Both the position numbers and the translations under genes were made by a program. Below are positions 4,824 to 24,733 of a DNA stretch of 24,733 bases, piece after piece. The stretch lies in the IMG/VR virus record IMGVR_UViG_3300036768_001101, positions 1 through 24,733 of that record, one strand, 5' to 3'. This DNA is from a virus. Below the pieces are notes generated by a model, which saw nothing but the letters and a program-made list of their open reading frames with translations, was not told the DNA's origin and made no database searches. Each line of letters opens with the position of its first letter. The stretch's first letter is position 1.

Positions 4824-5171
4824 ATGGATGATAAACTAATTGAAATCCTAAAAAACATATCACCTGAAACAAAGCAGTTTATTTTAGACCTTTTAGCCAT
4901 ATCATATGGGGTTGAGTATGGGGTGTTCAATCTGAAACTTAATATCCACAGAAAATCTATTAAAAAGGCAGAGTTTAAGGGGTGGAAGACAATAACATAT
5001 GGGAAGTCAGAACAAGACCAACAAAAAGCTGTGAAAGACCTAGCAGAGAAAATAGCAATTGCCAAAAAAAACAAACAAAACTGTAAACTTCATTTTTTAG
5101 TTGACTTGAAAGGGGGCTATATAACAGGAATTTACTGGGATAGTTTTTATGAAAAAATATATTCCCCTTGA
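4824..5171 (+). CDS. Conserved-looking hypothetical protein between terminase and portal
   Basis: This 115-aa protein starts 2 nt after the terminase stop, in the AAATATGGAT context, clearly in the same operon. The N-terminal ~30 residues look helical (LIEILKNISPETKQFILDLL). The rest alternates basic and hydrophobic residues and ends in likely beta strands (CKLHFLVDLKGGYITGIYW). No motif is recognised. Its TGA stop (5169-5171) lies within the TTGACA box of the portal promoter, so transcription units meet here without spacing. A packaging accessory role is only a guess from position. Confidence 0.75.
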   Translation: MDDKLIEILKNISPETKQFILDLLAISYGVEYGVFNLKLNIHRKSIKKAEFKGWKTITYGKSEQDQQKAVKDLAEKIAIAKKNKQNCKLHFLVDLKGGYITGIYWDSFYEKIYSP

Positions 5172-5196
5172 CAAGCAATAATTGTTTTGATATAGT
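5168..5196 (+). promoter_or_regulatory. Consensus sigma70 promoter upstream of portal leader
   Basis: TTGACA (5168-5173), exact 17-bp spacer, TATAGT (5191-5196), then TTTATTA with the predicted start at A5203. The same TTTATTA follows the -10 box of the tail promoter at 19150-19155. Confidence 0.85.
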
Positions 5197-5202: not shown

Positions 5203-5270
5203 AGGTTAGGTGTAGTCTTTGCGATTACACCCTGCACCACGCTTAATTAAAGGCGTGGTTTTTTTTGTAT
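5203..5270 (+). promoter_or_regulatory. Attenuator-like leader RNA before portal gene
   Basis: The leader from the predicted start to the portal ATG is 68 nt. It folds into hairpin 1 (GGTGTAGTC 5209-5217 with GATTACACC 5223-5231, 5-nt loop, one G-U) and the terminator hairpin described separately. GGTGTAG can also pair with CTGCACC (5232-5238), which touches the base of the terminator, so two alternative folds exist. Because the terminator lies between promoter and start codon, portal expression from this promoter requires read-through. Confidence 0.65.
5236..5266 (+). terminator. Intrinsic terminator 4 nt before portal start
   Basis: ACCACGC (5236-5242) pairs with GCGTGGT (5253-5259), with an AT-rich palindromic loop, then eight T (5259-5266). 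GTAT and the ATG at 5271 follow at once. The form is a textbook rho-independent terminator. Confidence 0.85.
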
Positions 5271-7091
5271 ATGGATATAGACAAAATCCTAAAACAATTT
5301 GAAAGTGACAAACAAGCTTACTCCAAAATATTCTCCTTATTTGATGAGAAAGAAAGGTTTTTGAAAAATGAAATTTCCGATAGCGGAAAAGGAATTCTTA
5401 AATCACAGGTATTAGACCAAACTTTAATGACTGCGTTAATTAGGCGAGCCAATCAAGTTATGGCTAAGATGCCAACGGGAGTGGTTAGAGTTCTATCAAA
5501 AGAGGATAAAGGGAAAGGTGTTTTCTTAAATTTAATTTTAGACCACTATATTATCCCAAATGCCAACTCACAGGCTGATATCTACACAAAGTTTTGGCTA
5601 ATGGAGTTTTTGTCTTTAATCTACGGGAAAATGGATGTTTTGGTTGACTGGGTGGTAAAGGAGGGGTATACAGGTCCTGACTTCTTCTTAATCCCACCAA
5701 AATTAGGAATACCTGAACCTGGGGTTATATCAACAAATGATATGTCCCGATATTTTGTTTTGTCTTATGTTTCAGAGGACTTTTTGAAAAAAAGAAAAGG
5801 GTTAAAATATTGGAAGAATATTGATAAAGTGCTTGATAAAGGAAAAAAGAATAAAACAGATGAAAGAGATACATCAACCTCAAAGGAAAGAGAGGAAAAT
5901 GAATTATACAAAGACCAATACGAGCTTATTACCTTATACACTCCAAAAAGTTGGATTACTTTTTCAAGACAAGCAAAGGTGATTTTAAGAGATATTGAAA
6001 ATCCTCATCAAAATGGAAAACTTCCAATTGTCTCAAAAGTATGCTATCCAACACTTGACAATTATTTCGGCACATCAGAATATGATAGAAATATAAGCCA
6101 GCAAAAAGCACTAAACTCAACTGTCAATTTATCACTTGATGCCTTAAAAAAACATCTTTATCCTCCAACTAAAATCTATCCAAGTGATGTTCATATGCCA
6201 TCTTTCTCATTATCACCTGGAGCAGTATGGGTATTGAAAAATCCAAATCCAAATGCTATTGTTCAAGAGCAATTCTCACCAGCACCACTTCAAACATTTA
6301 ATGCTTTATATGGAGTGTTAAAGGGAGCTTTGTTATCATCTCTTGGCACAACTGATACAACTGTATCATCTGCAGTTGAGCCAGCACAGGGAAAAACACC
6401 AGAGGCTTTGAAGATGCAACAAATGTTTATCACCCTAAACACCTCATTTGACAGAAAAATGTTAGAGCAGGCAATTTCAGATATCTATGACAGATTTTTA
6501 GACCTTCTAACCCACAAACAAGAGGCTGATATTGAATTTGATATTTTTGGTGATGAGTTTAATATGATAAAAGAGCAGTATCCTGATATTTTAGAGTTGT
6601 ATGAAAGCGGAGAAGGTGGAAAAATTACTATTAAAAACAAGGATATTAAAAACTTGTCGGTTAAATTCTTTATTGATGCTTCATCCACAATGAAGCAAGA
6701 TGAGATGCTTGAAAATCAAAACTTAACTTCTATTTTAGGCTTTTTATTAAAATTACCTGGCTTTATGGAGCAGGTAGCCCAGCAAGGAAAAGCAAGGTAT
6801 GGTTCAGTTGAAATTGATTTTTCAGAACTTCTTAAAAGATTTATAGCAACAGCAGGGGTAGAAGGGTATGACAAGATTATAAAAGACGCACCGAAGGAGG
6901 CATTAACAGTTAACAATGCCCAAACTCAACCCCAGGCTATGGGGATGGCTCAAATGCCACAACAACAAGGTATGGGAGAGGGTATGCCGCAGGAGGCACA
7001 ACCTCAACCACAACCGCAAGAAGAAAATCCTCTGATAGCAAGTCTACCTGAGGATCAAAAAAGATTGTTTTATGAAATTATAAACAGATAA
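5271..7091 (+). CDS. Portal protein
   Basis: This 606-aa protein has portal length and position: after terminase and before scaffold and capsid. Visible features that suit podovirus-type portals are an acidic and aromatic middle (YELITLYTPKSWITF), a Q/N-rich stretch around residues 275-300, a clip/stem-like helix region near 340-400 (ALLSSLGTTDTTVSSA) and a C-terminal Q/M/P-rich low-complexity tail (QPQAMGMAQMPQQQGMG) before a short helix. It should form the dodecameric ring through which DNA enters the head and to which the tail attaches. ATG 5271 is chosen over the in-frame TTG at 5265, which lies in the terminator T-run. The assignment rests on size, context and general look rather than a diagnostic motif. 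Confidence 0.85.
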   Translation: MDIDKILKQFESDKQAYSKIFSLFDEKERFLKNEISDSGKGILKSQVLDQTLMTALIRRANQVMAKMPTGVVRVLSKEDKGKGVFLNLILDHYIIPNANSQADIYTKFWLMEFLSLIYGKMDVLVDWVVKEGYTGPDFFLIPPKLGIPEPGVISTNDMSRYFVLSYVSEDFLKKRKGLKYWKNIDKVLDKGKKNKTDERDTSTSKEREENELYKDQYELITLYTPKSWITFSRQAKVILRDIENPHQNGKLPIVSKVCYPTLDNYFGTSEYDRNISQQKALNSTVNLSLDALKKHLYPPTKIYPSDVHMPSFSLSPGAVWVLKNPNPNAIVQEQFSPAPLQTFNALYGVLKGALLSSLGTTDTTVSSAVEPAQGKTPEALKMQQMFITLNTSFDRKMLEQAISDIYDRFLDLLTHKQEADIEFDIFGDEFNMIKEQYPDILELYESGEGGKITIKNKDIKNLSVKFFIDASSTMKQDEMLENQNLTSILGFLLKLPGFMEQVAQQGKARYGSVEIDFSELLKRFIATAGVEGYDKIIKDAPKEALTVNNAQTQPQAMGMAQMPQQQGMGEGMPQEAQPQPQPQEENPLIASLPEDQKRLFYEIINR

Positions 7092-9573: not shown

Positions 9574-9574
9574 G

Positions 9575-9619: not shown

Positions 9620-9622
9620 ATT

Positions 9623-10997: not shown

Positions 10998-10998
10998 T

Positions 10999-12106: not shown

Positions 12107-12436
12107 TTTTTTTTGATTAAGAGTATTTTGGTTTGGAAAGTGTGGTAGCGGAGGTTCTCCCATCCTTTCCGTTTTCCTTGACAACAAGGTTTGCAAATAA
12201 AAACGGCTTAACAATTGGGAGGGCGACCGAGACTCATCCAGACGCAAATAAGAAGTGTTGATTACATTTACATCCGTGAAAAAACCCAAGCACACTCCTC
12301 GTGCCAGGAAACAGAGGAGAGATGGGGGGAGATAGGAAGAAACAAGGTAGGATAAAAAGAAGGTGTAAACAACCTGCTTGCGGAGGAAAGATTGAGGGAA
12401 GCCAAGGGCATCAAGCACCGTAAGAGTAGAGTAAGA

Positions 12437-12451
12437 GGGGGGAGGGGGAGG
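12437..12451 (+). other. G-rich tract on + strand
   Basis: Six G, A, five G, A, two G (12437-12451), three bases before the left arm of the inverted repeat. It could form an RNA:DNA hybrid (R-loop) or a G-quadruplex when transcribed. An earlier GGGGGGAG block lies at 12324-12331. Confidence 0.6.
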
Positions 12452-12453
12452 CA

Positions 12454-12520
12454 TTATATACACGTCGTTTAATGTAAAGTTGAGGCTAAAAATAATAACA
12501 ATTTACGACGTCTTATATAA
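12454..12520. repeat. Inverted repeat with TATATA shoulders
   Basis: The left arm TTATATA-C-ACGTCGT (12454-12468) matches the right arm ACGACGT-CT-TATATAA (12505-12520): two 7-bp perfect blocks joined by a small internal loop, around a ~36-nt AT-rich spacer. It can be a cruciform in DNA or the 3' stem of the RNA. No T-run follows on the + strand, so it is not a standard terminator. Confidence 0.75.
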
Positions 12521-12529
12521 AAAAAAGAA

Positions 12530-12904
12530 TTAAGTAGCCCAAAGTTTTTCACGAGGACACCACTTTACTTCTATTTGATATTCTTTCACCAGTCTTTTAA
12601 TAATGGAGGCAGTCAGTTTTAATCTTTCCTCCTTCACTTTATAGTTTTCCATAGCAATCCCAACCATAAGTTTACTATCCGAATAAATAGTCTTTATTCC
12701 TCTTTTATATGCTTCAATTATGGCAGTAAGCAAAGCAAATAGTTCAGCCTCATTATTAGTATTATCATCACTATCAAGAGACAAAACCATTCTATCATTT
12801 GGAGAAAAATTAATTTTAGCAGTTGCTCTTCCACGAGGGTGACTAACATTAAAAAGAAAGGGATTTATAACTAGCCCACCATCACAATGTATCACTTTTT
12901 CCAT
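12530..12904 (-). CDS. RNase HI-like protein, C-terminally short
   Basis: This 124-aa protein runs against its neighbours. It has the RNase H order of motifs: an acidic first strand IHCDGG (Asp8), NNEAELFALLTAIIEA (Glu54) and the third strand IYSDSKLMV (Asp76), then a helix and VKWCPREK. Type I RNases H of this branch end with 'PRExN..AD', supplying a fourth catalytic Asp; here the chain ends REKLWAT, so the final position is Thr and no residues follow. RNase HI cuts RNA in RNA:DNA hybrids in replication and primer removal. Activity may survive or be altered. It has its own promoter, which shares its -35 region with the divergent one, and a weak AAGG before ATG 12904. Length is ~20-30 residues below normal. 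Confidence 0.8.
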   Translation of the reverse strand: MEKVIHCDGGLVINPFLFNVSHPRGRATAKINFSPNDRMVLSLDSDDNTNNEAELFALLTAIIEAYKRGIKTIYSDSKLMVGIAMENYKVKEERLKLTASIIKRLVKEYQIEVKWCPREKLWAT

Positions 12905-12918
12905 TTGATTACCTTATA

Positions 12919-12947
12919 ATTATACCATAAAAAATTCCTCTTGACAA
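12919..12947 (-). promoter_or_regulatory. Sigma70 promoter for RNase HI-like gene
   Basis: Minus strand: TTGTCA (12942-12947), exact 17-bp spacer, consensus TATAAT (12919-12924). The predicted start is about 12912, 8 nt before the ATG. The -35 box overlaps that of the divergent + promoter by five bases. Confidence 0.75.
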
Positions 12948-12968
12948 CTGTAAATTATTTGTTAATAT
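12941..12968 (+). promoter_or_regulatory. Sigma70 promoter for small basic protein leader
   Basis: TTGACA (12941-12946), 16-bp spacer, TAATAT (12963-12968). Predicted start near 12975, about 90 nt before the ATG at 13068. Confidence 0.65.
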
Positions 12969-12974
12969 CTTAAT

Positions 12975-13067
12975 ATATAGGTTTTCCTTTTTAAGAAGGC
13001 AACCAAAAAGCAGGCAATTATTGTCTGTTTTAGGTTGTCTTTTTTTTTATAAGTTTAATTAAAAAAT
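12975..13067 (+). promoter_or_regulatory. Attenuator-like leader before small basic gene
   Basis: The leader carries a small hairpin CCTTT/GAAGG (loop TTAA, one T-G) followed by a long imperfect terminator hairpin. A spacer of 19 nt with no Shine-Dalgarno separates the T-run from the start codon. Same order as the leaders before portal and tail adaptor: promoter, hairpin, terminator, gene. Confidence 0.55.
12998..13048 (+). terminator. Intrinsic terminator before small basic gene
   Basis: GGCAACC (12998-13004) pairs with GGTTGTC (13033-13039). Inside it GCAGGCAA pairs with TTGTCTGT plus flanking A-T pairs, making a ~18-bp imperfect stem with a TTA loop. Nine T follow (13040-13048). Confidence 0.8.
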
Positions 13068-13262
13068 ATGGAAAAAATGAAACCGAAAGGGAAAAAAGGT
13101 AGAGCAATGGTTAAAAAGTTGGGCAGAAATTACAAGACTGGAATGTTTAATAAAATAGCCAAAAAAGCTGCAAAAGAGTATGGTTCAAAAGAGGCAGGAA
13201 AAAGAGTTGCGGCAGCAATATATTGGAGGAAAGTAAGAAACAGAATTGCTAAAAGCTTATAA
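13068..13262 (+). CDS. Small very basic protein
   Basis: This 64-aa protein is rich in Lys and Arg with almost no acid residues. It contains a MVKKLGRNYKTGMFNKIAKK segment and then AAKEYGSKEAGKRVAAAIYWRKV. The 'RNYKTGGF.KIA.KAAK.YGS.EAG.RVA' layout resembles small basic proteins that recur in phages and low-GC bacteria. DNA or RNA binding, or a virion DNA-associated role, is plausible. It is preceded by its own promoter and attenuator leader, in the AAATATGG start context without a ribosome site. Coding status is well supported; function not known. Confidence 0.8.
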   Translation: MEKMKPKGKKGRAMVKKLGRNYKTGMFNKIAKKAAKEYGSKEAGKRVAAAIYWRKVRNRIAKSL

Positions 13263-13287
13263 AGTTATAAGTTTGATATAGTTTGAT

Positions 13288-13467
13288 ATGGAAGATGAAA
13301 AAAAAGAGCTAAAAGGGAAGGCGTTGATTATGGAGGCTTTAACTTCCTCCATAGCCTTTTACCGAATGCTTGAAAAAGCTTTTTTACAGGAAGGCAATCC
13401 TAAAATATCAAAAAGGATTGGTTTTCTTAAAATTGCTATCAAGGAATTAGAGAAATTAAAAGAGTGA
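13288..13467 (+). CDS. 59-aa small protein
   Basis: This short ORF begins MEDEKKELKGKALIMEALTS and ends KELEKLKE, 59 residues, probably all-helical. Its start is in TTGATATGGAA, with a possible -10 box TATAGT (13277-13282) 5 nt upstream but no convincing -35. The sequence GTTTGATAT is repeated immediately before and across the start. It converges with the minus-strand membrane-protein gene and overlaps its 3' end by 12 nt. Similar short helical proteins are encoded near virion genes of many phages; no family is recognised. Confidence 0.68.
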   Translation: MEDEKKELKGKALIMEALTSSIAFYRMLEKAFLQEGNPKISKRIGFLKIAIKELEKLKE

Positions 13468-13737
13468 TACAAAGGAGTTTAATATAACAACAAGAAAGTT
13501 TAGAAAGATAAAGCCGTAAAATGTAGCTTTACTAATAAAGTATTTTCTTGTTTTGTAGAAAATAAATAGTGCTAACAAAGATAAAGAAAGGTTAATGACA
13601 GAAAATAGGTTTAATCCGAAATTATTGATTAAAAAAGCATTAAAAGGATTAAGTTCGAAAGAACAATTATTTTTTAAACAATTATAAGTTGTAGTTATGT
13701 CAATAAAGCGTAATATTAGAAACGCTAAATAAGACAT
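13456..13737 (-). CDS. Small membrane protein, DUF5658-like
   Basis: This 93-aa, strongly hydrophobic protein has three likely membrane helices: residues ~1-17, a middle segment ~45-62, and ~73-92. The first loop has IDITTTYNCLKNNCSFELNPFNAF. The D..TT then E.NP spacing resembles the DUF5658 family of small membrane proteins of unknown function. It is transcribed against the late genes from its own consensus promoter and looks leaderless: TATAAT ends 6 nt before the ATG. A small antisense membrane gene in a late operon suits a superinfection-exclusion or lysis-timing product, but that is speculation. Confidence 0.72.
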   Translation of the reverse strand: MSYLAFLILRFIDITTTYNCLKNNCSFELNPFNAFLINNFGLNLFSVINLSLSLLALFIFYKTRKYFISKATFYGFIFLNFLVVILNSFVSLF

Positions 13738-13743
13738 AACTAT

Positions 13744-13772
13744 ATTATATCAAAAAATATGGCACTTTTCAA
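13744..13772 (-). promoter_or_regulatory. Sigma70 promoter, leaderless for membrane protein
   Basis: Minus strand: TTGAAA (13767-13772), exact 17-bp spacer, consensus TATAAT (13744-13749), then 6 nt to ATG 13737. The -35 box lies inside the first codons of the divergent virion gene starting at 13759. Confidence 0.8.
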
Positions 13773-15009
13773 CACAGTTGAAGGAACTTGGGGTATTGGA
13801 GGTTTTAAATTACCAGATAGAGGGATAACAGAATGGCTTTTTGGTGGAAATACAGGTAAGGCAAGCTGGCTTAACAATCCAAATGTTTATCAGGCAATTG
13901 GAACAAATCCACAAGAGTATGCTAATACTTTATCAACAAATAAACTTTATTCTAATTATACTCAAGGAACAGGGTTTAATCCTTATGGACCAACTGTAAC
14001 ATCATTATCAAAACCAATAAATAAAACCACCAATACGGGGGGAAGTAGAGGAGGTGGAGCACCATCAGTTAATTCTCGTGGAGAAAGACTTATTGGTTAT
14101 AACGCAAATGGAGACCCTGTTTATTCTGGTGGAAATACTGGTCCATCTCCACAAGATGAATACTACAACAGAATTAGGTCTAATATTGAAAGCGGATTTA
14201 ATCAATATTTATCAAATCTTGATAGACTAGCTGGACTTATTCCACAAATGCAACAAGAACAACAGGGATATCTTAATCAACAGTTTAATAGTATGCTTGG
14301 ACAGTTGGGAACTGAAAAACAGGCGGCTGAGCAACAAATTGGTACTTATAGACAAGATGTTCAAGCAAGAAAGCAAGCTGGAATGGATGAGATTTCTCAA
14401 AATTTAAGAAATCTAATGAAAGCAACTGAAATGCAACTTGGAGCAATGGGGGCAGGTTCATCATCTGCCGCACAAGTAATTGCCCCATACGCCTTATCCA
14501 AACAAGGTTCAAGAGCACAAGCACAAGTGATTAAGGGAGCAAATGACCAGTTGGCAGAGCTTGATAGAAAAATGATAGATGTTCAAAAAACATATGACAC
14601 TCAAAAATCACAAATAGAACAGTGGAAGGCAGATAAGATGTCAGAGATTGCAAATACTTATAACGACCTTAAGTTTAAGATTGAACAGGCTAAAGCAAAT
14701 GCTCCAATTGATAAGATGAACGCCTTAAACAATCTTGACCAAACTTTATTACAAAATGCTTTACAGATGGCAAACTATTATGAGCAAACTGCCAATCAGT
14801 ATAAAATGGGTCTTGACCAATGGGTCAGGGATAGAATTTCCCAATTACAAGATTTCAAAATACAGCTATCCAAGTCAGCAAACTTTAATCCAACGGAGCT
14901 AACCTATGATGCTTTACAAGGATTACAAGGACAACCACAAACATCATACGAGTTTTATAATCCAGTATTAGTTAATCAAATTAGAAGAAGATTAGGGTTA
15001 GCTCAATAA
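13759..15009 (+). CDS. Internal virion / ejection-type protein, coiled coil
   Basis: This 416-aa protein has an N-terminal 80-residue region with G/N/W (MALFNTVEGTWGIGGFKLPD), a disordered G/S/N linker with SRGGGAPSVNSRGERL, and then a long Q/A/K-rich coiled coil (residues ~130-370). It includes MDEISQNLRNLMKATEMQLGA and GAMGAGSSSAAQVI. Glutamine- and alanine-rich helical proteins placed between head and tail genes are typical of podovirus internal (core or ejection) proteins, which leave with the DNA and form a channel through the host envelope. Exact family not recognised. It starts in AAATATGGC without a ribosome site, 11 nt before which a divergent promoter lies. The next gene starts 10 nt after its stop. 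Confidence 0.75.
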   Translation: MALFNTVEGTWGIGGFKLPDRGITEWLFGGNTGKASWLNNPNVYQAIGTNPQEYANTLSTNKLYSNYTQGTGFNPYGPTVTSLSKPINKTTNTGGSRGGGAPSVNSRGERLIGYNANGDPVYSGGNTGPSPQDEYYNRIRSNIESGFNQYLSNLDRLAGLIPQMQQEQQGYLNQQFNSMLGQLGTEKQAAEQQIGTYRQDVQARKQAGMDEISQNLRNLMKATEMQLGAMGAGSSSAAQVIAPYALSKQGSRAQAQVIKGANDQLAELDRKMIDVQKTYDTQKSQIEQWKADKMSEIANTYNDLKFKIEQAKANAPIDKMNALNNLDQTLLQNALQMANYYEQTANQYKMGLDQWVRDRISQLQDFKIQLSKSANFNPTELTYDALQGLQGQPQTSYEFYNPVLVNQIRRRLGLAQ

Positions 15010-15019
15010 AAAAATAAAT

Positions 15020-18000
15020 ATGGACGAGCTAATTAAAAGGCTTAAAAAAAGCCTCTCTGACTTTACATCTAAACTTACTGATAATGAGGGATTTTTTCAG
15101 CAAGGAAAACCAACACTACAACCGATACAAGAGGCTATATCAAACTGGGCATCTAAACCTCAAAATTATCAGGTAGCTAATACTTTGGCTAATATCCCGC
15201 AAGCTATAAACACAGGCTTGTCTAATATAAAAAATAATATTGAAATGATTGCCAATCCCCAAACACGAGAGGATTGGTTTAGAGGCTTTACACCACAAAT
15301 ACCACAACAGATTAGCCAACCGATATCAAATTTACAGCAAAATATATCATTATTATCCAATCCTCAAACAAGGGGAACTTGGTTATCTGGCTTTATACCC
15401 GAAACACCAAAACCATTAGAAAACTTAAAACTAAATCTCCAACTAATTAAGAAAGCACCAGATAAAATGATACAATCTATTCCTCAATCAATGGAGGATA
15501 CCCTAATTAAATTAGGAAAAGATACAGGACAAAAATTAGGAGGTGAGACGGGAGCAACAGTTGGTGAAATATTAGGAAGAACGGCTGGTGGACTTGAAAA
15601 AGGCTTTACAACCGCCTTAATGTCTCCTTTTACCTCAAAACCACTCCCATCTAAAATTGGTGATATTATTGGTGGAGTTGGCTCAACTTATTATGCTGGT
15701 GAAACCGTTGGTTTTGCCGCCTTAAATCCAGTCTTTACCACAGTTGGCACCTTAATTACAAAAGGAAGACTACCGACAAAAGATGAGTTAATGAAGTCGT
15801 ATTCAGAGGGGATAGAATTTGGCTCAAAATTCGCACCAATAACAAAGGCAACAACACCAATAACTTCTGCTATTTTTGAAAAATACAATCCTCAAGAGAT
15901 TAAAACAGCAGTAGATGTTATGAAAAGACTGGCGGTAAAAGGATTAGGAGGAGCAACAAGTTTTGGGACTTTTGGTTATTTAACTTCCGATAAAACTGGT
16001 CAAGGGAGAATAAAAGATACAATTGATAACGCCATTCAGGGAGCGTTATTTGATATGGGAGCAGAGGGAGTTGGAATGGCGACAAAACCTATGGTTGAAA
16101 AAGTGAAAAACTTTATTAGTGATTTTATAAAACTCCCACCAGAGGAAAAATGGAATGTTTTAAGAAACGTAAATATAGGGTTTAATGTTAAACCAACAAA
16201 AGATAAAAATGTCAGAATGGTATCAGAAGCAGTCAAACAAGGTCATATTACACCAGAGGAAGGACAAGCAATTTTGGAGGATTTAGCAAAACAAGGAGAG
16301 AAGATTAAAATAAAAGGAAAAACCACTCCCCCACCAACAACTTCACCAGTAGGGGAGAGCGGGGGAGAGGTAGGAAATATTAATATAAATGGCTCTACAG
16401 AGCCACAAACAACTAAACAGCCACAAACAGATGAGTTTTTGAAAGGGTTGGAGGAGGATATGAAAAAACTTCAAAGTGAGCCTCCTAAACCTCCACCTCC
16501 TCCTGAAAGACTAGATTTAGGACAGGGAGGAGCGGTAGACAAGGCAAATATCAATACTGCCTTAAATTTTGATAGATTTAAACAAAGACTTATTCAAGCC
16601 TTAAATAATATTAACGCCGCAAAAACAGAAGGAATAAAAACAGGATTACAATTTAAGGACTTACCAAAAAATGTATCACCCGTAGATGCTATTAAGTTTA
16701 TTGAAAACCCAGAGAACGCACCTAAAAAATTAGAACCATATTTAAAAGAAGTAAGACGGGTGTATGACGAGTTATATAATTTAGCTCAAAAAGAAGGGAT
16801 TGATATGAAGTATGTTAAAAACTATTTAACCCATATTTGGGACAGACCACAAGAGGAAGTAGCTCAACTTTATAAACAATACAAAACTAAATTTAATTTT
16901 TCAAACGAAAGGACTTTACCAACTTATGAGGAAGGTATTAAAATGGGACTTAAACCAAAATACTCAAATCCAGCTCAAATTATTGCTGATTATACATCAA
17001 GACTAAAACAAACAATTGAAAAAATTTCTCTTTTAAGAGATTTAGAAAAAGAAGGATTTTTAGTAGCAAAAAGAATACCAGGTTTTGAGCCAGTGACAGT
17101 ATCGGGGATTGAGCCAAAAGCAAAAATCATAGGAGAGAATAAAATAAGAGAAGGAGTGTATTATGCACCACCTGAGGTAGCTGAAGTTTTAAGACGAGCC
17201 TTTGGCGAGCAAAAACCAGGACTTTTTTCTTTACCAGCAAAAATAATGGCTTTATGGCAGGATATAAAATTAGCAGGTGGAATACCAGGAACACCATTAA
17301 ATGCTTGGACTTTTGGACAGGTGATAAAAGAGATAACGGCAGGAAGACCTATTCACGCCCTAAAGGCAATTGTAAATTCAATGACAGAGGAGGGAGCTAA
17401 TAAATTTTTTCAAGAGCATATAGATGATATTTTAGCAATGCAAAAAAGAGGAATAGGTGTTTCAACCTCATTAAATCTTACAGGAATAAAAAACATAGGG
17501 GAGATTTTTAAAGAAAAAGGATTGGGTGGTGTATGGCACGCTGTAGTTAATGACCCAACTTTCAAAAGATTTTCACCAATGCTTCAAATTGATTTTTTTT
17601 CAAGAATGAAAAATGAGTTAATTAACAAAGGGTATGATAAAGAATTAGCGGCTGATATAGCGGCAAAAGCAACTAAAAACTTTTATGGGATAGTAGATTA
17701 TGGAGAAAGGGCTTTAAGAGATAAAAATATAGAAGATTTAATAACAACAGTCTTTTTTGCACCAAAGTATAGAGAAGGGATTTTAAACTTTATGATAAAT
17801 AACATAAAAGCCTTAAAAAATCCATTATCACCAGAAAATATTTACAACACTCGTTATATTATCGGCACTGTTTTAACATATTTGGCGTATGATAAGTTAA
17901 ACAGGATGTTTAATGGAAGAGGTTTAGCAGAAAATCCACCAGGGACAGAGGATAAACTTTTAATTCCAGTTTCAAAAATAACAGGGGATGAAAATGATAA

Positions 18001-19138
18001 AACAGTTATAGGAATACCAATTGGACCAAGTGTTTTAACCTTACCAAGAGCAGGAGCAAGAGCAGTTTTAAGAGTGGCAAAAGGGGATATAAAAGGAGCA
18101 ATAGGGGATGTTGTTTCAACAGCATCTTCAATGGGATTAAAAACAATTGGTGATATTGCGATGAATTCAGATTATTTTGGAAAACCTATTTATGATGAGG
18201 GAGACGATTTACCAACCGCAACCAAAAAAATAGCTCAATATTTATTTACTCAAACACAGCACCCGTATATTTCAGAGATTTTTGACCCAAGAAATCAAAA
18301 AGACCCAGCCTATCAGAGATTAGCAAGAGCAATAGAACTACCTTTGCGATTTTATACCGAAAAATCATTAAATGCTAAATATTTTTTTCAATTCCAAAAT
18401 GAGGTATTAAGAGGGCTTGATGCAAAAGAAAAATCAGCCTATAACTCAATACCAAAAATAGATGAGAAAGACCCTCAAGACCCAAATAGAAGAATTTTAA
18501 AATATCAAATTTATTTAACCTATCCCAATGTTTTCAAAGCCAAGCAAGCAATTGAGATAGCAATGGCTCAAAAACTAAACAAAGAAATAGACCCGTTATA
18601 TTTAGTTGATTATGAGACAGCAAAAAAATATATGAGGTATGAGACACTACCTGATGGTTCTCCCGAAAGAAAAGCAATGAATAATGTTTATCCAGAATTA
18701 AAAGTCTTATTTGAAAAAAGAGCGGAGTATTTTAAAAGAAATCCAATGCCAGAGGATGGACAAACGGTAGCAATGACCCAACCTCAACCATCAGAAAGAG
18801 TTAAAAAGAAAATGGAGGAGAAAAACTGGAGCGACCCTGAGGTAAAAGATTATTTAAATGCTTTAAGAGAGTGGCAGAATACTCAAAGAATAAAGTTAGG
18901 ATTACCATCAATTGATCAATATGGCAATATTGAGGGGACAAAAGGTTTTTCGTTTGGGGGTGGTAAAACGAAAAAAATAAAAATATCTCTTAAACCACCA
19001 AAAACAAAAAAAATCTCAATCAGACCAAAAGCAGTAAGAATGACAAGAATTAAAGTTAGTCCAAAAATAGGTAGCATAAGTTTAAAGAATATAAAAAGTA
19101 AAGTAAAGAGACCAAAAATAAAAGTATTGACAGGTTAA
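15020..19138 (+). CDS. Giant internal virion / ejection-type protein
   Basis: At 1372 aa this is the largest protein here and matches the size of T7 gp16/N4-type ejected virion proteins, though sequence family is not recognised. Residues ~66-125 hold an imperfect repeat (IANPQTRxxWFRGF then LSNPQTRGTWLSGF). Residues ~150-260 are Gly/Ala-rich and amphipathic, likely membrane-active. A P-rich, acidic linker with PPPTTSP and PPKPPPPPERL (~420-490) follows, then a long helical middle. The last ~60 residues are very basic (KTKKIKISLKPPKTKK and similar), likely to contact DNA or the membrane. No lytic transglycosylase motif was noticed. Starts in AAATATGGAC with no ribosome site. The promoter for the tail genes overlaps its last codons. 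Confidence 0.75.
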   Translation: MDELIKRLKKSLSDFTSKLTDNEGFFQQGKPTLQPIQEAISNWASKPQNYQVANTLANIPQAINTGLSNIKNNIEMIANPQTREDWFRGFTPQIPQQISQPISNLQQNISLLSNPQTRGTWLSGFIPETPKPLENLKLNLQLIKKAPDKMIQSIPQSMEDTLIKLGKDTGQKLGGETGATVGEILGRTAGGLEKGFTTALMSPFTSKPLPSKIGDIIGGVGSTYYAGETVGFAALNPVFTTVGTLITKGRLPTKDELMKSYSEGIEFGSKFAPITKATTPITSAIFEKYNPQEIKTAVDVMKRLAVKGLGGATSFGTFGYLTSDKTGQGRIKDTIDNAIQGALFDMGAEGVGMATKPMVEKVKNFISDFIKLPPEEKWNVLRNVNIGFNVKPTKDKNVRMVSEAVKQGHITPEEGQAILEDLAKQGEKIKIKGKTTPPPTTSPVGESGGEVGNININGSTEPQTTKQPQTDEFLKGLEEDMKKLQSEPPKPPPPPERLDLGQGGAVDKANINTALNFDRFKQRLIQALNNINAAKTEGIKTGLQFKDLPKNVSPVDAIKFIENPENAPKKLEPYLKEVRRVYDELYNLAQKEGIDMKYVKNYLTHIWDRPQEEVAQLYKQYKTKFNFSNERTLPTYEEGIKMGLKPKYSNPAQIIADYTSRLKQTIEKISLLRDLEKEGFLVAKRIPGFEPVTVSGIEPKAKIIGENKIREGVYYAPPEVAEVLRRAFGEQKPGLFSLPAKIMALWQDIKLAGGIPGTPLNAWTFGQVIKEITAGRPIHALKAIVNSMTEEGANKFFQEHIDDILAMQKRGIGVSTSLNLTGIKNIGEIFKEKGLGGVWHAVVNDPTFKRFSPMLQIDFFSRMKNELINKGYDKELAADIAAKATKNFYGIVDYGERALRDKNIEDLITTVFFAPKYREGILNFMINNIKALKNPLSPENIYNTRYIIGTVLTYLAYDKLNRMFNGRGLAENPPGTEDKLLIPVSKITGDENDKTVIGIPIGPSVLTLPRAGARAVLRVAKGDIKGAIGDVVSTASSMGLKTIGDIAMNSDYFGKPIYDEGDDLPTATKKIAQYLFTQTQHPYISEIFDPRNQKDPAYQRLARAIELPLRFYTEKSLNAKYFFQFQNEVLRGLDAKEKSAYNSIPKIDEKDPQDPNRRILKYQIYLTYPNVFKAKQAIEIAMAQKLNKEIDPLYLVDYETAKKYMRYETLPDGSPERKAMNNVYPELKVLFEKRAEYFKRNPMPEDGQTVAMTQPQPSERVKKKMEEKNWSDPEVKDYLNALREWQNTQRIKLGLPSIDQYGNIEGTKGFSFGGGKTKKIKISLKPPKTKKISIRPKAVRMTRIKVSPKIGSISLKNIKSKVKRPKIKVLTG

Positions 19139-19155
19139 AAAAAAGAGTGTATTAT
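19127..19155 (+). promoter_or_regulatory. Sigma70 promoter for tail operon leader
   Basis: TTGACA (19127-19132), exact 17-bp spacer, TATTAT (19150-19155), then TTTATTA with the predicted start at A19162. The -35 box encodes Leu-Thr of the giant virion protein, whose stop lies at 19136-19138. Confidence 0.85.
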
Positions 19156-19161
19156 TTTATT

Positions 19162-19229
19162 AAAAGTTAGTCTTTTCCGAGATAATCGGGATGTAGACAG
19201 GGGATAATTCTCCTGTCTTTTTTTTGTAT
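19162..19229 (+). promoter_or_regulatory. Attenuator-like leader before tail adaptor gene
   Basis: The leader is 68 nt, the same as the portal leader. Hairpin 1 pairs TTCCGA (19175-19180) with TCGGGA (19186-19191), loop GATAA. It can be extended by GTCT (19170-19173) with AGAC (19195-19198), but those GAC bases (19196-19198) also begin the terminator stem, so the extended hairpin 1 and the terminator are mutually exclusive, as in attenuators. TAGTCTTT occurs in this and in the portal leader. Confidence 0.65.
19196..19225 (+). terminator. Intrinsic terminator 4 nt before tail adaptor start
   Basis: GACAGGGGA (19196-19204) pairs with TCTCCTGTC (19209-19217), loop TAAT, one G-U, then eight T (19218-19225). 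GTAT and ATG 19230 follow. The T-run and start (TTTTTTTTGTATATG) are identical to those before the portal gene. Confidence 0.88.
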
Positions 19230-19910
19230 ATGACACTATCTGAAATCTTAAACAAAATCCATCTTTTATACGAGGGGGATACTAGTTATCCAGCAGATGG
19301 AAGTGAGGACTATAATTTAAGAAAAGGACTGGTAAATGCAGCAATAGATGTCTGGGAGCAGGAGAATGTCAGATGGAGAGAGTTATTTAAAAATCTATCG
19401 GATGCAACAGATGGGGATAAGACAGCAACAACATCAACTACCTCCTATTCAACCCCCTCCGATTATCGCTTTATCTCATCTTTTTTGTATATTCAAGATG
19501 CATCTGGAAATAAAACCTACTATGTCTATAAAAGACCAGATGATGTGATAAAAACAGACAAAATCAATAGTTCATCAAAATTCTTTTATGAGACAGGCGG
19601 AGGCTCATCAAAAAAAATAAATATTGTTAATCCAGTAAACGGGATTATTCACTACTCCTATTACAAAAAAGCAACTAAATTATCAAACTCAACTGATGTT
19701 CCCGAGATGTTAAATCCAGATTTTATTGTATATTGGGTTTTAGCACAACTTTATGAGCAGGATTTAAGAAATGATAAGGTGGCTCAATATCAAGCCTTAG
19801 CCAAGCAGTCTTTGGATTATATGATTATTGAAAATGAAACAAAACCATTCAATCAAAGTTATAATTTAGCCGAACTTGATTATGAGGACGGCTTTATCTT
19901 TGGAAAATGA
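19230..19910 (+). CDS. Head-tail adaptor / tail tubular A-like protein
   Basis: From ATG 19230 the product is 226 aa; the in-frame TTG at 19224 is part of the terminator T-run and is rejected. The pattern is that of podovirus adaptor proteins (gp11 of T7 / similar 'tail tubular A'). The N-terminal helices (LSEILNKIHLLYEG, then LRKGLVNAAIDVWEQEN) are followed by a beta-rich middle (TPSDYRFISSFLYI and IIHYSYYKKATKL). A C-terminal helical segment (MLNPDFIVYWVLAQLYEQDLR, residues ~173-193) comes next. It should join portal to the tail nozzle. It is translated from the leader described above with an ATGA junction to the next gene. Assignment by pattern and order, fairly sure. Confidence 0.78.
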   Translation: MTLSEILNKIHLLYEGDTSYPADGSEDYNLRKGLVNAAIDVWEQENVRWRELFKNLSDATDGDKTATTSTTSYSTPSDYRFISSFLYIQDASGNKTYYVYKRPDDVIKTDKINSSSKFFYETGGGSSKKINIVNPVNGIIHYSYYKKATKLSNSTDVPEMLNPDFIVYWVLAQLYEQDLRNDKVAQYQALAKQSLDYMIIENETKPFNQSYNLAELDYEDGFIFGK

Positions 19911-21886
19911 TAGTTCCAAGAGAACAAAAAGCAAACTTAAAGACTTGGTCAATTAAAATTGACAGTTTTAGAGGTGGTTCAAACACCCTTATTAATCCTG
20001 GACGCCTAAGACCTATTTTTTCACCTGATATTAGAAATCTTTATCAAGTTCAAGATGGTATATGGAAGACAAGACCAGGAAGAGCGTATTATGGAGAGGC
20101 TATTACAGGAGCAAGCAATATAGACGGAGCAACAGAATTTGACAACGGAGGAGTAAGGGAAATTATTGCTATAGCATCAGATGGCTATGCCTATAAATCA
20201 ACTGACGGGGGAAACTGGACAAAAATATCAAACACCATTACTTTTACCCCAGGAAAAAAATATTACTTTGCTCAAATTGGCGGAAAACTTTTTATAGGAA
20301 ACAGCACCGAAAGATTGACAGTATATGACGGATCTACCCTTACACGATATACTCCACTATCCGATCCTTCATCAGCTCCAACTGGCACACGAACAGGATT
20401 AACCACAGGCTCGTATAACAACTATTATAGAATTGTAGCAACAAATAAAATTGGTAATACTAACCCATCACCATCAGTAAACGTGACAACTAACAAGCAC
20501 AGAGACAATTGGGATACATCAAACTATGTTACTTTATCTTGGACGGCTATAACAGGAGCAGATGGTTATCAAATATACTGGGGTAAATTTGATGGGGAAG
20601 AGGTTTTAATTGCAGAAACAACAACCACTACTTTTAATGATTACGGAAATGTCACCTATCCTGCCAATACCTATATTGAAACACCAGATGATAATACAAC
20701 TGGAGGTCCAAAATTAGGTTCTTTGGAAATCTCTCAAAACAGACTTTGGGGGACAGGTGACCCAGATAACGAGTATCGGGTATATGCAACAGGCACAGGA
20801 CAATACTTTACCAATCCCGCCTTCTCACCTTTTTATGGGGGTGTGTGGATTGACTTGGAGCTTGGAGGAAAAAATAAGCCTGTTGCAGTTACTCATTATA
20901 GAACTGGTAAAGGAGACCCGATTATTACTGTTTTATGTAAGTCAGCAGACGGTAACGGGACGATTTTTCAAGTTGATTTAACAACAGTTAATATCGGAGA
21001 TGAGACAGCCGTTGTTCCTGCCGCCTATAAACTGGTTGGGGCAGTTGGGGCAGATGGGGCTAAATCAGTAGTTAAGGTATTAGACAATGTCTTTTTTGCC
21101 AATAAAAAAGGAGTTTTTGCTTTAAGAAATAAACAGCAGATGTTTAATGTTTTATCAAATGATGATATGACAGCCCCAATTAGAAATCAATATGAGGATA
21201 TTCCCTCTCAGTATGTTGAAAATATCGTTGGTTACTACAATCCACCACGGATATATTTTTCAATTCCCTCTGGTTCAAATGAGTATAAGATTGCTATTTT
21301 TGATATGGAGAGAAATAACTGGACTTGGTATTGGGATTTTGGGGCGAAAGACTTTTTTGAATACACAGACAGTAATGGTGTTACTCACTTTTTGATAGTT
21401 CCACCAACGGGAAACCGCCTGGTTGAGTTATCAGAAAGTTATACCTCTGATTTTGGTAGTTATTTTTACCAACTTTACACCTCCCCTTTAATTCCTATTG
21501 ACAAAGACTATAGAGTTGTTGCTAAAATAAAGGAGGTTATAGCAGAGTTAGGTTCTTTTAGAGGTGGGGCAACGATTGAGGTAGTTGGGGTTACAAAAGA
21601 CGGACAGATATCAACGCTTGCTACAGCAACAATCTCCTCAACTTCAGGTACATCTGGCTGGGGAGATGACTTTTTCTCAGATATGCTTTTTTCCGATACC
21701 AATGATACTCCATCTGTTTTTGTTGCCGATGTTATTAAAAAATATCTAAAAGTCAATAAAAAATTATATGCTTTACAGGTTAAAATTTATTCAACAACAG
21801 CAAATACTGTTTTTGAGTTATTGGGTTTAGAGGCTTGGGGATTTGCGATGTTAAAACGAAGTCCATCAAGCTGGAAAATCAATTAA
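19907..21886 (+). CDS. Tail nozzle / tubular B-like protein with Fn3-like domain
   Basis: This 659-aa protein begins with RGGSNTLINPGRLRP and NLYQVQDGIWKTRPGRAYY, followed by beta-propeller-like repeats (AIASDGYAYKSTDGG, then YFAQIGGKLFIGNSTERLTVYDG). An Fn3-like insert lies near residues 150-250: APTGTRTGLTTGSYNNYYRI, then SWTAITGADGYQIYWG. The propeller continues with LGSLEISQNRLWGTGDPDNEY and VLDNVFFANKKGVFALRN, then IAIFDMERNNWTWYWDFG. Beta-propeller tail nozzles follow the adaptor in podoviruses and form the tube end that contacts the host. Starts in an ATGA overlap with the adaptor gene. Confident as tail nozzle-type; exact family not checked. Confidence 0.82.
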   Translation: MIVPREQKANLKTWSIKIDSFRGGSNTLINPGRLRPIFSPDIRNLYQVQDGIWKTRPGRAYYGEAITGASNIDGATEFDNGGVREIIAIASDGYAYKSTDGGNWTKISNTITFTPGKKYYFAQIGGKLFIGNSTERLTVYDGSTLTRYTPLSDPSSAPTGTRTGLTTGSYNNYYRIVATNKIGNTNPSPSVNVTTNKHRDNWDTSNYVTLSWTAITGADGYQIYWGKFDGEEVLIAETTTTTFNDYGNVTYPANTYIETPDDNTTGGPKLGSLEISQNRLWGTGDPDNEYRVYATGTGQYFTNPAFSPFYGGVWIDLELGGKNKPVAVTHYRTGKGDPIITVLCKSADGNGTIFQVDLTTVNIGDETAVVPAAYKLVGAVGADGAKSVVKVLDNVFFANKKGVFALRNKQQMFNVLSNDDMTAPIRNQYEDIPSQYVENIVGYYNPPRIYFSIPSGSNEYKIAIFDMERNNWTWYWDFGAKDFFEYTDSNGVTHFLIVPPTGNRLVELSESYTSDFGSYFYQLYTSPLIPIDKDYRVVAKIKEVIAELGSFRGGATIEVVGVTKDGQISTLATATISSTSGTSGWGDDFFSDMLFSDTNDTPSVFVADVIKKYLKVNKKLYALQVKIYSTTANTVFELLGLEAWGFAMLKRSPSSWKIN

Positions 21887-21903
21887 AAGTTTAATTAAAT
21901 TAT

Positions 21904-22791
21904 ATGGGACTATATAGAGCAAAAGATTTTTGGACAGGAACACTGGCATCATCGATACCTGATGGGACAGTAACCTCTTTTACCTTATCATCATCATCAG
22001 GATTGACAAATGGTGAAACATATGTTTTTACAATTGACAGAGTAGATGCCAACGGGACAAAAACATTAAACAAAAAAGAGGCAATTGTTGGCACTGTCTC
22101 TGGTTCAAATGTTATTAATTGTCAAAGAGGGGCAGAGGGAACAGCACAATCTCACTCGGCTGGGGCTATTGTTGAAATTCTTTTTACCGCAAAACATTGG
22201 AATGATTTAATTGATAGTTATAAAACACAACATCGAGAAGACGGCACTCACTCTAAAATTAAAGGGCTTGATAACAATCAGCCTATTACTCAAAAAGACA
22301 GTGGTGGGACGGCAAGAGATATTGCGAATATTAATAGTTCTGATGTTACTACCTTTGGCAATACTACAACTACAACTAAAATAAAAGCAGGGTCAAATAC
22401 AACTTCGGGTCACACAGTTCCAAATGTGGCAGATGATACTTTTGCTTTACTTTCAAATCCATCACAAAATATTAAACTTCCAACTCCTTTTTCAACAGCA
22501 ACAGATGGAGCAACAGTTACTTTTGATTTAGCTCAATCAAGAAACTGGATTGTAACTTTGGGTGGAAATAGGACTTTAGCTTTATCAAATGTATTAACTG
22601 GTATGGTTTTTATGATTACATTAAAACAAGATGGCACAGGTTCAAGAACTGTTACTTGGTGGAGTGGAATATCTTGGGCTGGTGGAATAGCACCAACTCT
22701 AACAACAACAGCCAACAAAGCAGACACCTTTGGTTTTATTTGCACAGGAACTAATACTTATTATGGTTATGTAGTTGGACAGAATTTATAA
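21904..22791 (+). CDS. Tail fibre / receptor-binding-type protein
   Basis: This 295-aa protein has an N-terminal domain of virion-attachment look (MGLYRAKDFWTGTLASSIPD). Residues 60-90 have INCQRGAEGTAQSHSAGA, the 'RGxEGT.a..hsaG' pattern common in phage tail and collar fibres. A hinge, AKHWNDLIDSYKTQHREDG, follows, then a T/S/G/N-rich beta-helix stretch and a C-terminal jelly-roll-like domain (WIVTLGGNRTLALSN, then FICTGTNTYYGYVVG). Cys residues are few. It starts in TTATATGGG without a ribosome site, 17 nt after the nozzle stop. Probably a trimeric fibre that binds the host surface; no intramolecular chaperone is seen. Confidence 0.8.
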   Translation: MGLYRAKDFWTGTLASSIPDGTVTSFTLSSSSGLTNGETYVFTIDRVDANGTKTLNKKEAIVGTVSGSNVINCQRGAEGTAQSHSAGAIVEILFTAKHWNDLIDSYKTQHREDGTHSKIKGLDNNQPITQKDSGGTARDIANINSSDVTTFGNTTTTTKIKAGSNTTSGHTVPNVADDTFALLSNPSQNIKLPTPFSTATDGATVTFDLAQSRNWIVTLGGNRTLALSNVLTGMVFMITLKQDGTGSRTVTWWSGISWAGGIAPTLTTTANKADTFGFICTGTNTYYGYVVGQNL

Positions 22792-22792
22792 A

Positions 22793-23968
22793 ATGGCAAA
22801 CTTAAATTCTTGGCAGAAAATAACACGAGTTTTACCAGGATTACCTTTTGGAGATGGGATTGATGGTGATTATAACTCTTCATCAATTCCTACAATGACT
22901 TATCGTTCTTGCTCTGGTTCTTCTGGCTCAACAACTTTGACTTTAGGGTCTGCTGGATTTTCAAATGGAGATTTGATTTTAATTCACCAAACAAGAGGAA
23001 CAGGGGCAGGACAGTGGGAAATTAATAAAATTGTTTCTGGCGGTGGAACAACATCTTTAACCTTACAAACAGCACTTCAATATACCTATACTGATAGTGG
23101 AGCTTCACAATCACAAGTAGTTAAAATACCAAGATACAATAATGTAACTTGTCCTTCTGGAACTTGGACTGTGCCTTCTTGGAATGGGGATACTGGTGGT
23201 ATTTTAGTTTTAGCGGCAAAAGGAACTGTAACGATTACTGGAACGATAAATGCTACTGGTGTTGGGTTTCAGGCTGGAGCTCAAGTTTCAGGAGCAGATG
23301 TAGGTGGACAACAAGGAGAAGGAACTTCAGGGGGTGGAGGAGGAACATCAAGTTCTGCAAATGGTAATGGAGGAGGTGGAGGAGGAACTGGTAGTGGTCT
23401 TGATGGTGGAGCTGGAGGAGGTGGAGGAGGAAATGGAACTTCTGGTCAAAATGGAGGAGCTGGTCAACAGCCATCAGGTGGAGCTGGAGGAGCAACAGCA
23501 GGGTCATCAGATTTAACTGTAGCAGTATTTGGAGGTGGTGGTGGTTCAGGTTCAGCTGGTCGTAATGGGTCAAATATAGGTTATGCAGGAGGACCTGGTG
23601 GAGGAGCTATCTTTATATTTGCTAAAACAATAAACATTACAAATTCAATTACAATAAATGGGACAAATGGAGCAAACGCAACTACTAATAATGGTGGTGG
23701 AGGTGGAGGAGGGTCAGGAGGTTCATTTCTTATAGCTTGTAATACAGCAACTTTAAATTCAAGTTTGGTTACAGCTGTTGGTGGAACAGGTGGGACAGCT
23801 GGAACAAGTAATGGAGGTAATCGTCAAGGAGGTAATGGTGGTGTTGGTCGTATTGCTCTTCATTATTCTGGTTCTTATTCTGGTTCAACAAATCCAACTT
23901 TATATGCTAATCTTGACCCAAGTTTAGTAGAAGCAACAGGAGGAAGTTTTTTATATAATTTTATTTAA
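22793..23968 (+). CDS. Glycine-rich tail adhesin
   Basis: This 391-aa protein starts at ATG 22793, one base after the fibre stop; an in-frame TTG at 22775 overlaps the fibre gene and is rejected. Residues ~1-130 are a beta-rich domain. Residues ~155-330 are mostly Gly (runs such as TSGGGGGTSSS and GGAGGGGGGNG), with Asn/Ser between. This is the composition of polyglycine-II sandwich adhesins found at phage fibre tips (T4-like S16 gp38 type), where packed Gly helices present variable loops to the receptor. The C-terminus folds back into a beta-like segment (GGVGRIALHYSGSYSG). It probably caps the fibre and sets host range. Family by composition only. Confidence 0.8.
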   Translation: MANLNSWQKITRVLPGLPFGDGIDGDYNSSSIPTMTYRSCSGSSGSTTLTLGSAGFSNGDLILIHQTRGTGAGQWEINKIVSGGGTTSLTLQTALQYTYTDSGASQSQVVKIPRYNNVTCPSGTWTVPSWNGDTGGILVLAAKGTVTITGTINATGVGFQAGAQVSGADVGGQQGEGTSGGGGGTSSSANGNGGGGGGTGSGLDGGAGGGGGGNGTSGQNGGAGQQPSGGAGGATAGSSDLTVAVFGGGGGSGSAGRNGSNIGYAGGPGGGAIFIFAKTINITNSITINGTNGANATTNNGGGGGGGSGGSFLIACNTATLNSSLVTAVGGTGGTAGTSNGGNRQGGNGGVGRIALHYSGSYSGSTNPTLYANLDPSLVEATGGSFLYNFI

Positions 23969-23970
23969 CT

Positions 23971-24733
23971 ATGGAACAAAAACTAAAAGATTTTATAAAC
24001 AAATGGATAAATAAAGGAGGAGTAGGAAACACACCAGAGAATAAAGGACAGTGTGTCGGCTTGGTTTGTGTCTGGGTAGATGAATTAGGTTTAGACCATA
24101 TTTGGGGAAATGCTAAAGACTTGTGGAAAAACTATAACCCTCATCAATTTGACTTTGTATTAAATACTGCCGATGCTTATCCAATAGCGGGTGATATCGT
24201 TGTCTGGAATGAGAAGATGGGTGGGGGATATGGACACACGGCTATTGCAACAGGCGTTCATCAGACAGAGGGAAAAGCAACTGACTGGTTTGAGGCTTTT
24301 TCTCAAAATGACCCAGTAGGCTCTCCTTGTATCTTAAAAAAATACTCTTATAACAATGTCATAGGATTTATTAGACCTAAAAAAGAATTGGTTAAATTAG
24401 ATGACTATTATTTAGGAATTGACTTAAATAACAAGGATAGTGTAAAAGTCTGTGTTGATATGTGGGATAGGGTTGTAAATAAAAAAGAATTTATTGAGAA
24501 AAAAGAAGTAGAGAATAACTATGTCTTAAAATCAGAATATCAAAACTTACAAAATCAACTGTCTCAAAAAGATGATACCATTAAAAATCTTAATCAACAG
24601 ATTAAAGACTTAAATGTTAAAAACACAACTATTAATGATGAGAATAGAAGACTTTTAGACCAGCTTAAAGATTGTCAAGACAAACTAAATGAAATCAATG
24701 GGACTTTTAGCAAACAGCAAGAGCAATTGCTAA
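23971..24733 (+). CDS. CHAP-domain endolysin with coiled coil (partial)
   Basis: From ATG 23971 the frame stays open to the right edge: 254 codons are visible. Residues ~20-140 are a CHAP domain, a cysteine amidase/endopeptidase that cuts peptidoglycan. The catalytic Cys28 is in KGQCVGLV, His89 in GGGYGHTAIA, and the third residue is probably Glu108 in WFEAFSQNDP. PIAGDIVVWN (71-80) is the usual strand before the His. After an unclear link (~140-180), residues ~185-250 form a long coiled coil (LQNQLSQKDDTIKNLNQQIK), which may oligomerise the enzyme or attach it to the virion. There is no signal peptide, so export would need a holin, or it acts from the tail. It starts 2 nt after the adhesin stop. 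Confidence 0.88.
   Translation, partial: MEQKLKDFINKWINKGGVGNTPENKGQCVGLVCVWVDELGLDHIWGNAKDLWKNYNPHQFDFVLNTADAYPIAGDIVVWNEKMGGGYGHTAIATGVHQTEGKATDWFEAFSQNDPVGSPCILKKYSYNNVIGFIRPKKELVKLDDYYLGIDLNNKDSVKVCVDMWDRVVNKKEFIEKKEVENNYVLKSEYQNLQNQLSQKDDTIKNLNQQIKDLNVKNTTINDENRRLLDQLKDCQDKLNEINGTFSKQQEQLL

Follow-up and report, generated by a model that had tools for sequence, protein, structure and literature searches.

RESULTS

The tail, portal and probable third leaders

The window, i.e. the whole stretch of DNA analysed (24,733 bases of an IMG/VR virus record), contains genes for terminase, portal, capsid and virion structural proteins, and its sequence suggests a T7-like phage of probable podovirus type. 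The terminase large subunit (3330-4821) seemingly falls into two frames that overlap (277 and 221 aa); in several relatives it occupies one frame of about 390-430 aa. Compared with 50,697 phage records, the window portal gave one weak match (23% identity), while three other portals and the tail B protein gave no match to named phage records. Bacillus phage Page is a capsid relative (31%); in its left 12 kb a ribosome site is annotated at the portal, and no terminator is annotated before the portal. Two MAGs contain related phage contigs, binning being no proof of host.

Table 1. Features of the three leaders and of the genes behind them (window coordinates)
Feature	Position	Strand	Details
Tail-operon promoter (predicted)	19127..19155	+	TTGACA 19127-19132, 17-nt spacer, TATTAT 19150-19155; conserved in L003, L004 and L005
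Tail leader RNA, 68 nt	19162..19229	+	Predicted start A19162, 7 nt past the -10 box; runs to the base preceding ATG
GUCU, 5' strand of the putative lower (antiterminator) helix	19170..19173	+	Partner AGAC 19195-19198; nascent-prefix fold in 4/4 tail leaders and cognate-foot test
Hairpin 1 upper stem UUCCGA/UCGGGA, loop GAUAA	19175..19191	+	Predicted fold; two pairs with both sides changed in 4 relatives
Terminator hairpin AGACAGGGGA-UAAU-UCUCCUGUCU (predicted)	19195..19218	+	Foot 19195-19198 common to extended hairpin 1
T8 tract	19218..19225	+	Ends 4 nt 5' of the tail gene ATG (19230)
Tail A, first tail-operon gene	19230..19910	+	phrog_2941, virion structural protein; clustered in 14/15 records
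Portal-operon promoter (predicted)	5168..5196	+	TTGACA 5168-5173, 17 nt, TATAGT 5191-5196
GGU able to pair with ACC 5236-5238 of the portal terminator foot	5204..5206	+	Nascent-prefix fold
Portal hairpin 1, 9-bp stem GGUGUAGUC/GAUUACACC	5209..5231	+	7 sequences, 100% of cells paired
Portal terminator hairpin 5236-5259 with T8 tract 5259-5266	5236..5266	+	Sequence, alignment
Portal protein gene	5271..7091	+	phrog_332, head-tail adaptor; portal matches weaker
Probable third leader	12941..13048	+	TTGACA-16-TAATAT, then GGCAACC..GGUUGUC hairpin with nested hairpin, T9

The gene upstream of the tail leader ends at 19138, within the promoter (Table 1). The spacer is exactly 17 nt in the tail promoter, as the initial annotation had described, and in the portal promoter. 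Again as described there, the predicted start lies 7 nt past the -10 box with TTTATTA after that box in both, and each leader measures 68 nt (A19162 to the ATG at 19230; A5203 to the ATG at 5271, the whole portal element spanning 5168-5273). The leader ends are identical as well: the record has just two copies of TTTTTTTTGTATATG, at 5259 and 19218, and the last 15 letters are alike. TAGTCTTT is present in both leaders, as noted earlier, but it lies inside the stem of hairpin 1 in the portal leader and before hairpin 1 in the tail leader; taken alone this sharing is weak, an 8-nt match being found in 73 of 2000 shuffles.

Within positions 4800-24733, which were scanned for such elements, the tail and portal promoters were the two best promoter-like sites on the plus strand (11 of 12), and the same two leaders were listed first among plus-strand terminator-like sites. 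Promoter-like sites in general were not enriched in this part (66 versus 65.6 in shuffles); thus, the weight of the observation rests on the conjunction of features and on their conservation.

The predicted fold of the full-length tail leader consists of hairpin 1 and the terminator (-22.5 kcal/mol). In the nascent RNA, with the 3' arm of the terminator still absent, GUCU 19170-19173 is predicted to pair with AGAC 19195-19198 and to lengthen hairpin 1; a nascent-prefix fold with this extended hairpin 1 is common to all four tail leaders. Forcing extended hairpin 1 on the full tail leader gives -18.2 versus -22.5 kcal/mol, a cost of 4.3 kcal/mol, and leaves a residual terminator of 6 bp that is distant from the T-tract. 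Since AGAC 19195-19198 is used by both structures, extended hairpin 1 and the full terminator would be mutually exclusive. The initial annotation had proposed this exclusion with three shared bases; the exclusion stands, also statistically across the clade (see below), but the shared bases number four.

Start-stop pairs in the leaders had been suspected of being fortuitous. The first triplet of ATGTAG reads ATG, GTG, AGG and ACG in the four tail leaders, and the corresponding triplet of the portal leaders reads GTG, ATG and GCG; being unconserved, these pairs are due to chance. Ribosome-mediated attenuation through a leader peptide was considered and rejected, as this triplet varies among tail and portal leaders and no conserved leader reading frame was observed in them.

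The probable third leader precedes a small basic gene at 13068, and its plan is looser than that of the tail and portal leaders. In the relative L040 a leader (15305) stands ahead of an opening that looks similar. An RNase H-like gene (12530-12904, minus strand) lies directly upstream of the third promoter and diverges from it.

Conservation of the leaders in related phages

Scans of the viral collection returned three tail relatives at 89-91% identity and eight portal relatives at 84-100% identity. All these close relatives retain the promoter, hairpin 1, the terminator and the TTTTTTTTGTATATG end; in the alignment of L004 the T-run is divided between terminator arm and tract. Hairpin 1 is paired in all cells both in seven portal leaders (9 pairs, two with both sides changed) and in four tail leaders (6 pairs, again two with both sides changed, of which one occurs in three pair types); the shuffle controls for these pairs are weak (79/500 portal, 20/500 tail) because the sequences are few.

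Distant relatives were collected through capsid alignment (80 viral loci and three genome loci). With duplicates removed, a terminator that ends no more than 20 nt from an early ATG was found before 32 of 44 portal genes versus 5 of 511 other genes. A detailed set, from which the tail counts are taken, was made of 15 records, possibly fragments, comprising the window and 14 fetched records. A terminator-like structure was found upstream of tail A in 14/14 and upstream of the portal gene in 12/14 cases scored, the G014 portal, truncated at the record end, being left out. One of the two portal misses, G008, was scored as such because the start had been set wrongly, upstream of the terminator; its leader has a T-run directly before an ATG. 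The other, G010, is a true exception and has no T-run. The counts for other genes were as follows: MCP 0/13, tail B 0/13, W15020 (large protein) 0/12, W7428 0/14, terL 1/14, W13759 3/15, scaffold 4/15, W21904 2/14, glycosyltransferase 1/13 and W10256 1/8. Terminators are rare or absent before genes within late operons.

The portal of one of these relatives is only 37% identical to the window portal, and the retention of terminators in distant relatives indicates that the second leader and the link between leaders and late operons are old and conserved. Whether related phages keep the second leader was the point on which the initial annotation hung; each of the 14 tail A genes detected in the 15 records is preceded by a terminator-like hairpin with a T-run, its letters changed. 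The earlier reading of a putative attenuator-like leader is supported by these comparisons.

Some relatives depart from the simple arrangement. A tRNA gene with CAT anticodon lies between attenuator and portal start in L043 (6421-6626), L044 (1020-1245) and L048 (3540-3790); given its location downstream of the attenuator, it would be expressed only on read-through. In L025 (near 513), L086 (near 3222), L089 (near 6597) and L079 (near 2503) the ATG that follows the T-run opens a very short frame, and the portal start is further down. By eye, the loop of portal hairpin 1 has the pattern CANNYGTA on differing stems in L060, L064, L072, L077, L092 and L110.

Matching between leaders and terminator feet

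In predicted folds the other leaders have the same extended-hairpin plan with different letters; for instance, AGUCU pairs with a GGGCU or GGACU foot, AUAAGU with GCUUAU and, in L017 and L040, GUCU with AGAC. We used a cognate-foot test, in which each leader was paired with its own terminator foot and with the feet of other leaders (swapped). For 46 hand-curated leaders the total gain was -135.5 versus -90.9 (sd 9.8) for swapped feet, with none of 20,000 permutations as good, and for 32 less redundant leaders 6 of 20,000 permutations were as good as the cognate feet; as the leaders are related and not fully independent, such permutation counts overstate certainty. The 30 portal leaders alone gave 11/20,000 and the 11 tail leaders alone 540/20,000, so the cognate fit in tails alone is only suggestive.

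The foot hypothesis in this form was framed after the folds had been seen; for the tail leader it was already present in the initial annotation. In the final test, boundaries were set automatically, redundant leaders were filtered out and other terminators served as controls. For 27 automatically delimited non-redundant leaders, 3, 0, 1 and 0 of 20,000 permutations were as good for feet of 4, 5, 6 and 7 nt, respectively; the z value of own-foot fit was about -4 to -5, with -0.2 for other terminators. No cognate fit was observed when the 6 hairpin nt following the foot were used instead, nor for sets of 33 and 68 other terminators.

Pairing of the whole leader to the 5' arm of the terminator, measured by duplex energy, was negative (0/48 leaders below p 0.05, mean z +0.33); this test averaged over hairpin 1 and missed the foot. 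Paired foot bases were present in 45/48 leaders versus 34 expected from shuffles, a modest excess, and the foot helices are short, mostly with 3-6 paired foot bases. Exact copies of the terminator's final 4 or 5 nt were not enriched in the leaders (7/48 versus 4.18 for 4 nt; 0/48 for 5 nt). The modelled mutual exclusion of extended hairpin and terminator holds statistically clade-wide. To judge from sequence and predicted fold, a promoter-proximal intrinsic terminator stands before the first gene, and a competing upstream helix sharing terminator bases is matched leader by leader in the relatives.

Promoters across the clade

Among the hand-curated leaders (48, of which 47 were re-located in the data for promoter scoring), 39 of 47 have a promoter score of at least 10 upstream, with 1.35 expected from shuffles; four tail leaders score below 9 (7 or 8). 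A strict promoter search gave nine sites in 7 of 14 records, two of which are late leaders (G007 portal and G004 tail). No terminator was seen by eye after the sites at G003 2082, G004 30845, G006 33848 and G008 32679 and 34738; the G002 site (12203) is on the strand opposite to the late genes of its record, and the G012 site (29846) has a T-run ~130 nt downstream.

The promoters of G008 (L129) at 32679 and 34738 in record coordinates have 15 identical spacer bases and possibly represent a shared early-promoter type. Strict-consensus promoters were also seen 7-11 nt 5' of an ATG outside late operon heads (L121:13346-13384, L125 near 15349-15393 and L129 near 16239-16280), a distance that suggests leaderless or near-leaderless mRNAs; one of them precedes the gene of a small protein whose sequence resembles helix-turn-helix proteins (MKLLTPAQVAKICGVSRMTVYRWM).

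Strings common to leaders of one phage

One contig, L016, has four promoter-leader-terminator units, at 5949, 8481, 10742 and 12116. Two of the other leaders each have an 11-nt string in common with its portal leader (TTATCGTAACC and CGTAACCAAAT; 0/2000 shuffles), and CGTAACC is common to three of its leaders. Two leaders of G012 have TTGTATTGT in common (12/2000 shuffles). Such strings point to a putative common factor in some phages. Most of the 27 within-phage leader pairs share no more than shuffles do, and the two leaders of the window differ in the sequence of hairpin 1, where a single RNA-binding factor would predict sharing. The motif AGTCTT is present in 9/31 leaders versus 0.32 in shuffles, in about five lineages. 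It was weighed as a boxA-like motif, after lambda boxA, and was not retained as such; it is partly accounted for by pairing to AGAC or GGACU feet.

DISCUSSION

A candidate attenuator at the head of late operons

We consider it probable, from sequence and modelled folds, that an attenuator heads the tail operon and is one of a set placed at the late operons, which comprises those of portal and tail and probably a third. Host RNA polymerase would start constitutively at a predicted sigma-70-type promoter. The leader would fold first into hairpin 1 with a lower helix, one strand of which is the foot of the terminator still to be completed. If the extended hairpin fails, the terminator would zip to the T-tract, and transcription would mostly stop 4 nt before the start codon. 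A putative factor (phage protein, host protein or RNA) may stabilize the extended hairpin; the terminator stem would then be shortened and held away from the T-tract, allowing read-through into genes that are presumably expressed late.

A wider proposal is quite possible, if still somewhat doubtful: that leader and foot co-evolve within each phage and that, throughout this clade of podovirus-like phages, late operons are gated by RNA attenuators in which leader helix and terminator compete for the foot. The terminator would often hide the ribosome site too, so that a single RNA fold would control both transcription and translation of the virion genes.

Comparison with known systems

The geometry of the leaders has precedents. 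According to PMC9981650 and PMC3369936, the 3' end of the RAT antiterminator hairpin is the foot of an intrinsic terminator, so that the two structures are mutually exclusive; once the foot is captured by the antiterminator of a RAT or ANTAR leader, the terminator stem is shortened and separated from the U-tract. The window leaders resemble the RAT/CAT systems (BglG-LicT-SacY, NagY) in having an antiterminator that overlaps the terminator foot. However, RAT/CAT leaders belong to sugar genes, whereas the window leaders precede phage structural operons, with the U-tract ending at the start codon, and, unlike in RAT/CAT, the sequence of hairpin 1 varies between leaders of the phage clade. A CAT_RBD protein (PF03123) was found in 0/15 phage records, which may be fragments, while the control search matched in four genomes; a host protein is still conceivable. 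The ANTAR attenuators (EutV, NasR, AmiR) are alike in foot geometry but have the P1/P2 hairpin pair where the window leaders have one hairpin; the ANTAR domain (PF03861) gave 0/15 records, yet no match in control genomes either.

Searches for other effectors gave little. The control of the single-subunit polymerase search was without a match as well. Eight small or conserved candidate proteins, when scanned, yielded an RNase H and a sub-threshold HNH but no RNA regulator. At the Rfam gathering score the window had no match, and 13 relative loci gave only a tRNA.

HK022 put RNA, as outlined in PMC9378689, is also a leader of ~70 nt with two stem-loops just past the promoter; however, put acts, without a protein, on distant terminators, whereas the second stem-loop of the window leader is itself a predicted terminator with a U-tract. 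Each part of the proposed device has a precedent. Their combination, namely a foot-overlapping antiterminator at several late operons, a U-tract ending at the ATG and leader-foot matching across the clade, was not found in the literature searched, coverage of which was partial.

Alternative explanations

Phages are known in which late genes are held by terminators and freed by a polymerase-bound protein, as described in PMC6624301 and PMC6606751. Processive antitermination by a protein of the Xp10 P7 or lambda Q kind, with hairpin 1 as a loading site or incidental, seems an unlikely but serious account of the leaders. PMC6624301 describes Xp10 late genes that follow intrinsic terminators, are transcribed by the host polymerase and are reached when P7 lets it bypass these terminators, and in the window clade too terminators stand at two or more late operon heads. 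Still, P7 acts on polymerase, while in the window clade every terminator faces a competing helix that is matched to it and lies in the same leader, and leader-to-foot matching is not predicted by this account. Nor was a NusG family protein (PF02357) found in any of the 15 records, with the control search matching in 10 genomes. Lambdoid Q at pR'-tR' likewise involves a terminator downstream of a late promoter (21tR' and 21PR' in PMC6606751), but it requires a sigma pause as well as a DNA site located between the -35 and -10 boxes, and neither was recognized in the window; by eye the -35/-10 spacers of the two window promoters are unlike, and so no shared Q-type site was seen.

It is very improbable that the leaders are independent, trans-acting small RNAs of ~60-70 nt with two hairpins and a U tail, adjacent to genes through compactness of the genome. 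Promoter, two hairpins and U-tract are all present, and in Gifsy-1 IsrK one promoter gives both a short RNA and a read-through mRNA (PMC4825925). However, the leaders stand at late operon heads and scarcely before other genes, and their sequences differ between operons of one phage.

Translation has to be considered as well. In many terminators that touch an ATG the 3' arm contains a G-run 9-13 nt before the ATG. When the arms were swapped, the real order bound the anti-Shine-Dalgarno better than the swapped one in 32 of 39 cases and worse in 4, versus 22 and 13 of 43 for other terminators. With this Shine-Dalgarno-like run in the 3' arm of many relatives, the hairpin could also block translation. 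As such a run is missing from the window's tail leader, only in some members of the clade is it plausible that both transcription and translation are gated. The same enrichment, and the several other promoters of these phages that lie 7-11 nt before an ATG, might speak for a 5' stabilizing and translation-start element, with the hairpin shielding the mRNA and the ribosome being guided by the U-tract or the 3'-arm G-run. We find this explanation scarcely credible: not only does the window's tail leader lack the G-run, but long T-tracts and a shared foot would be unnecessary.

Least credible is simple punctuation, with the terminator closing the upstream operon, whose last gene indeed ends inside the tail promoter, and the promoter there by chance: a promoter stands upstream of the terminator, where it would be self-defeating, in 39/47 leaders, and other terminators have no leader-foot matching.

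Implications

The attenuator reading bears on how virion genes may be switched on. Late timing in phages that use the host polymerase is usually credited to a terminator-overriding protein. The present sequences suggest instead a matched RNA switch, found at several late operons and repeated across distant relatives. The leaders make up a natural set of paired antiterminators and terminators and may serve as a handle for finding operon heads in uncultured phage genomes. With them it can also be tested directly if virion production is turned on by a factor that binds RNA or one that binds polymerase.
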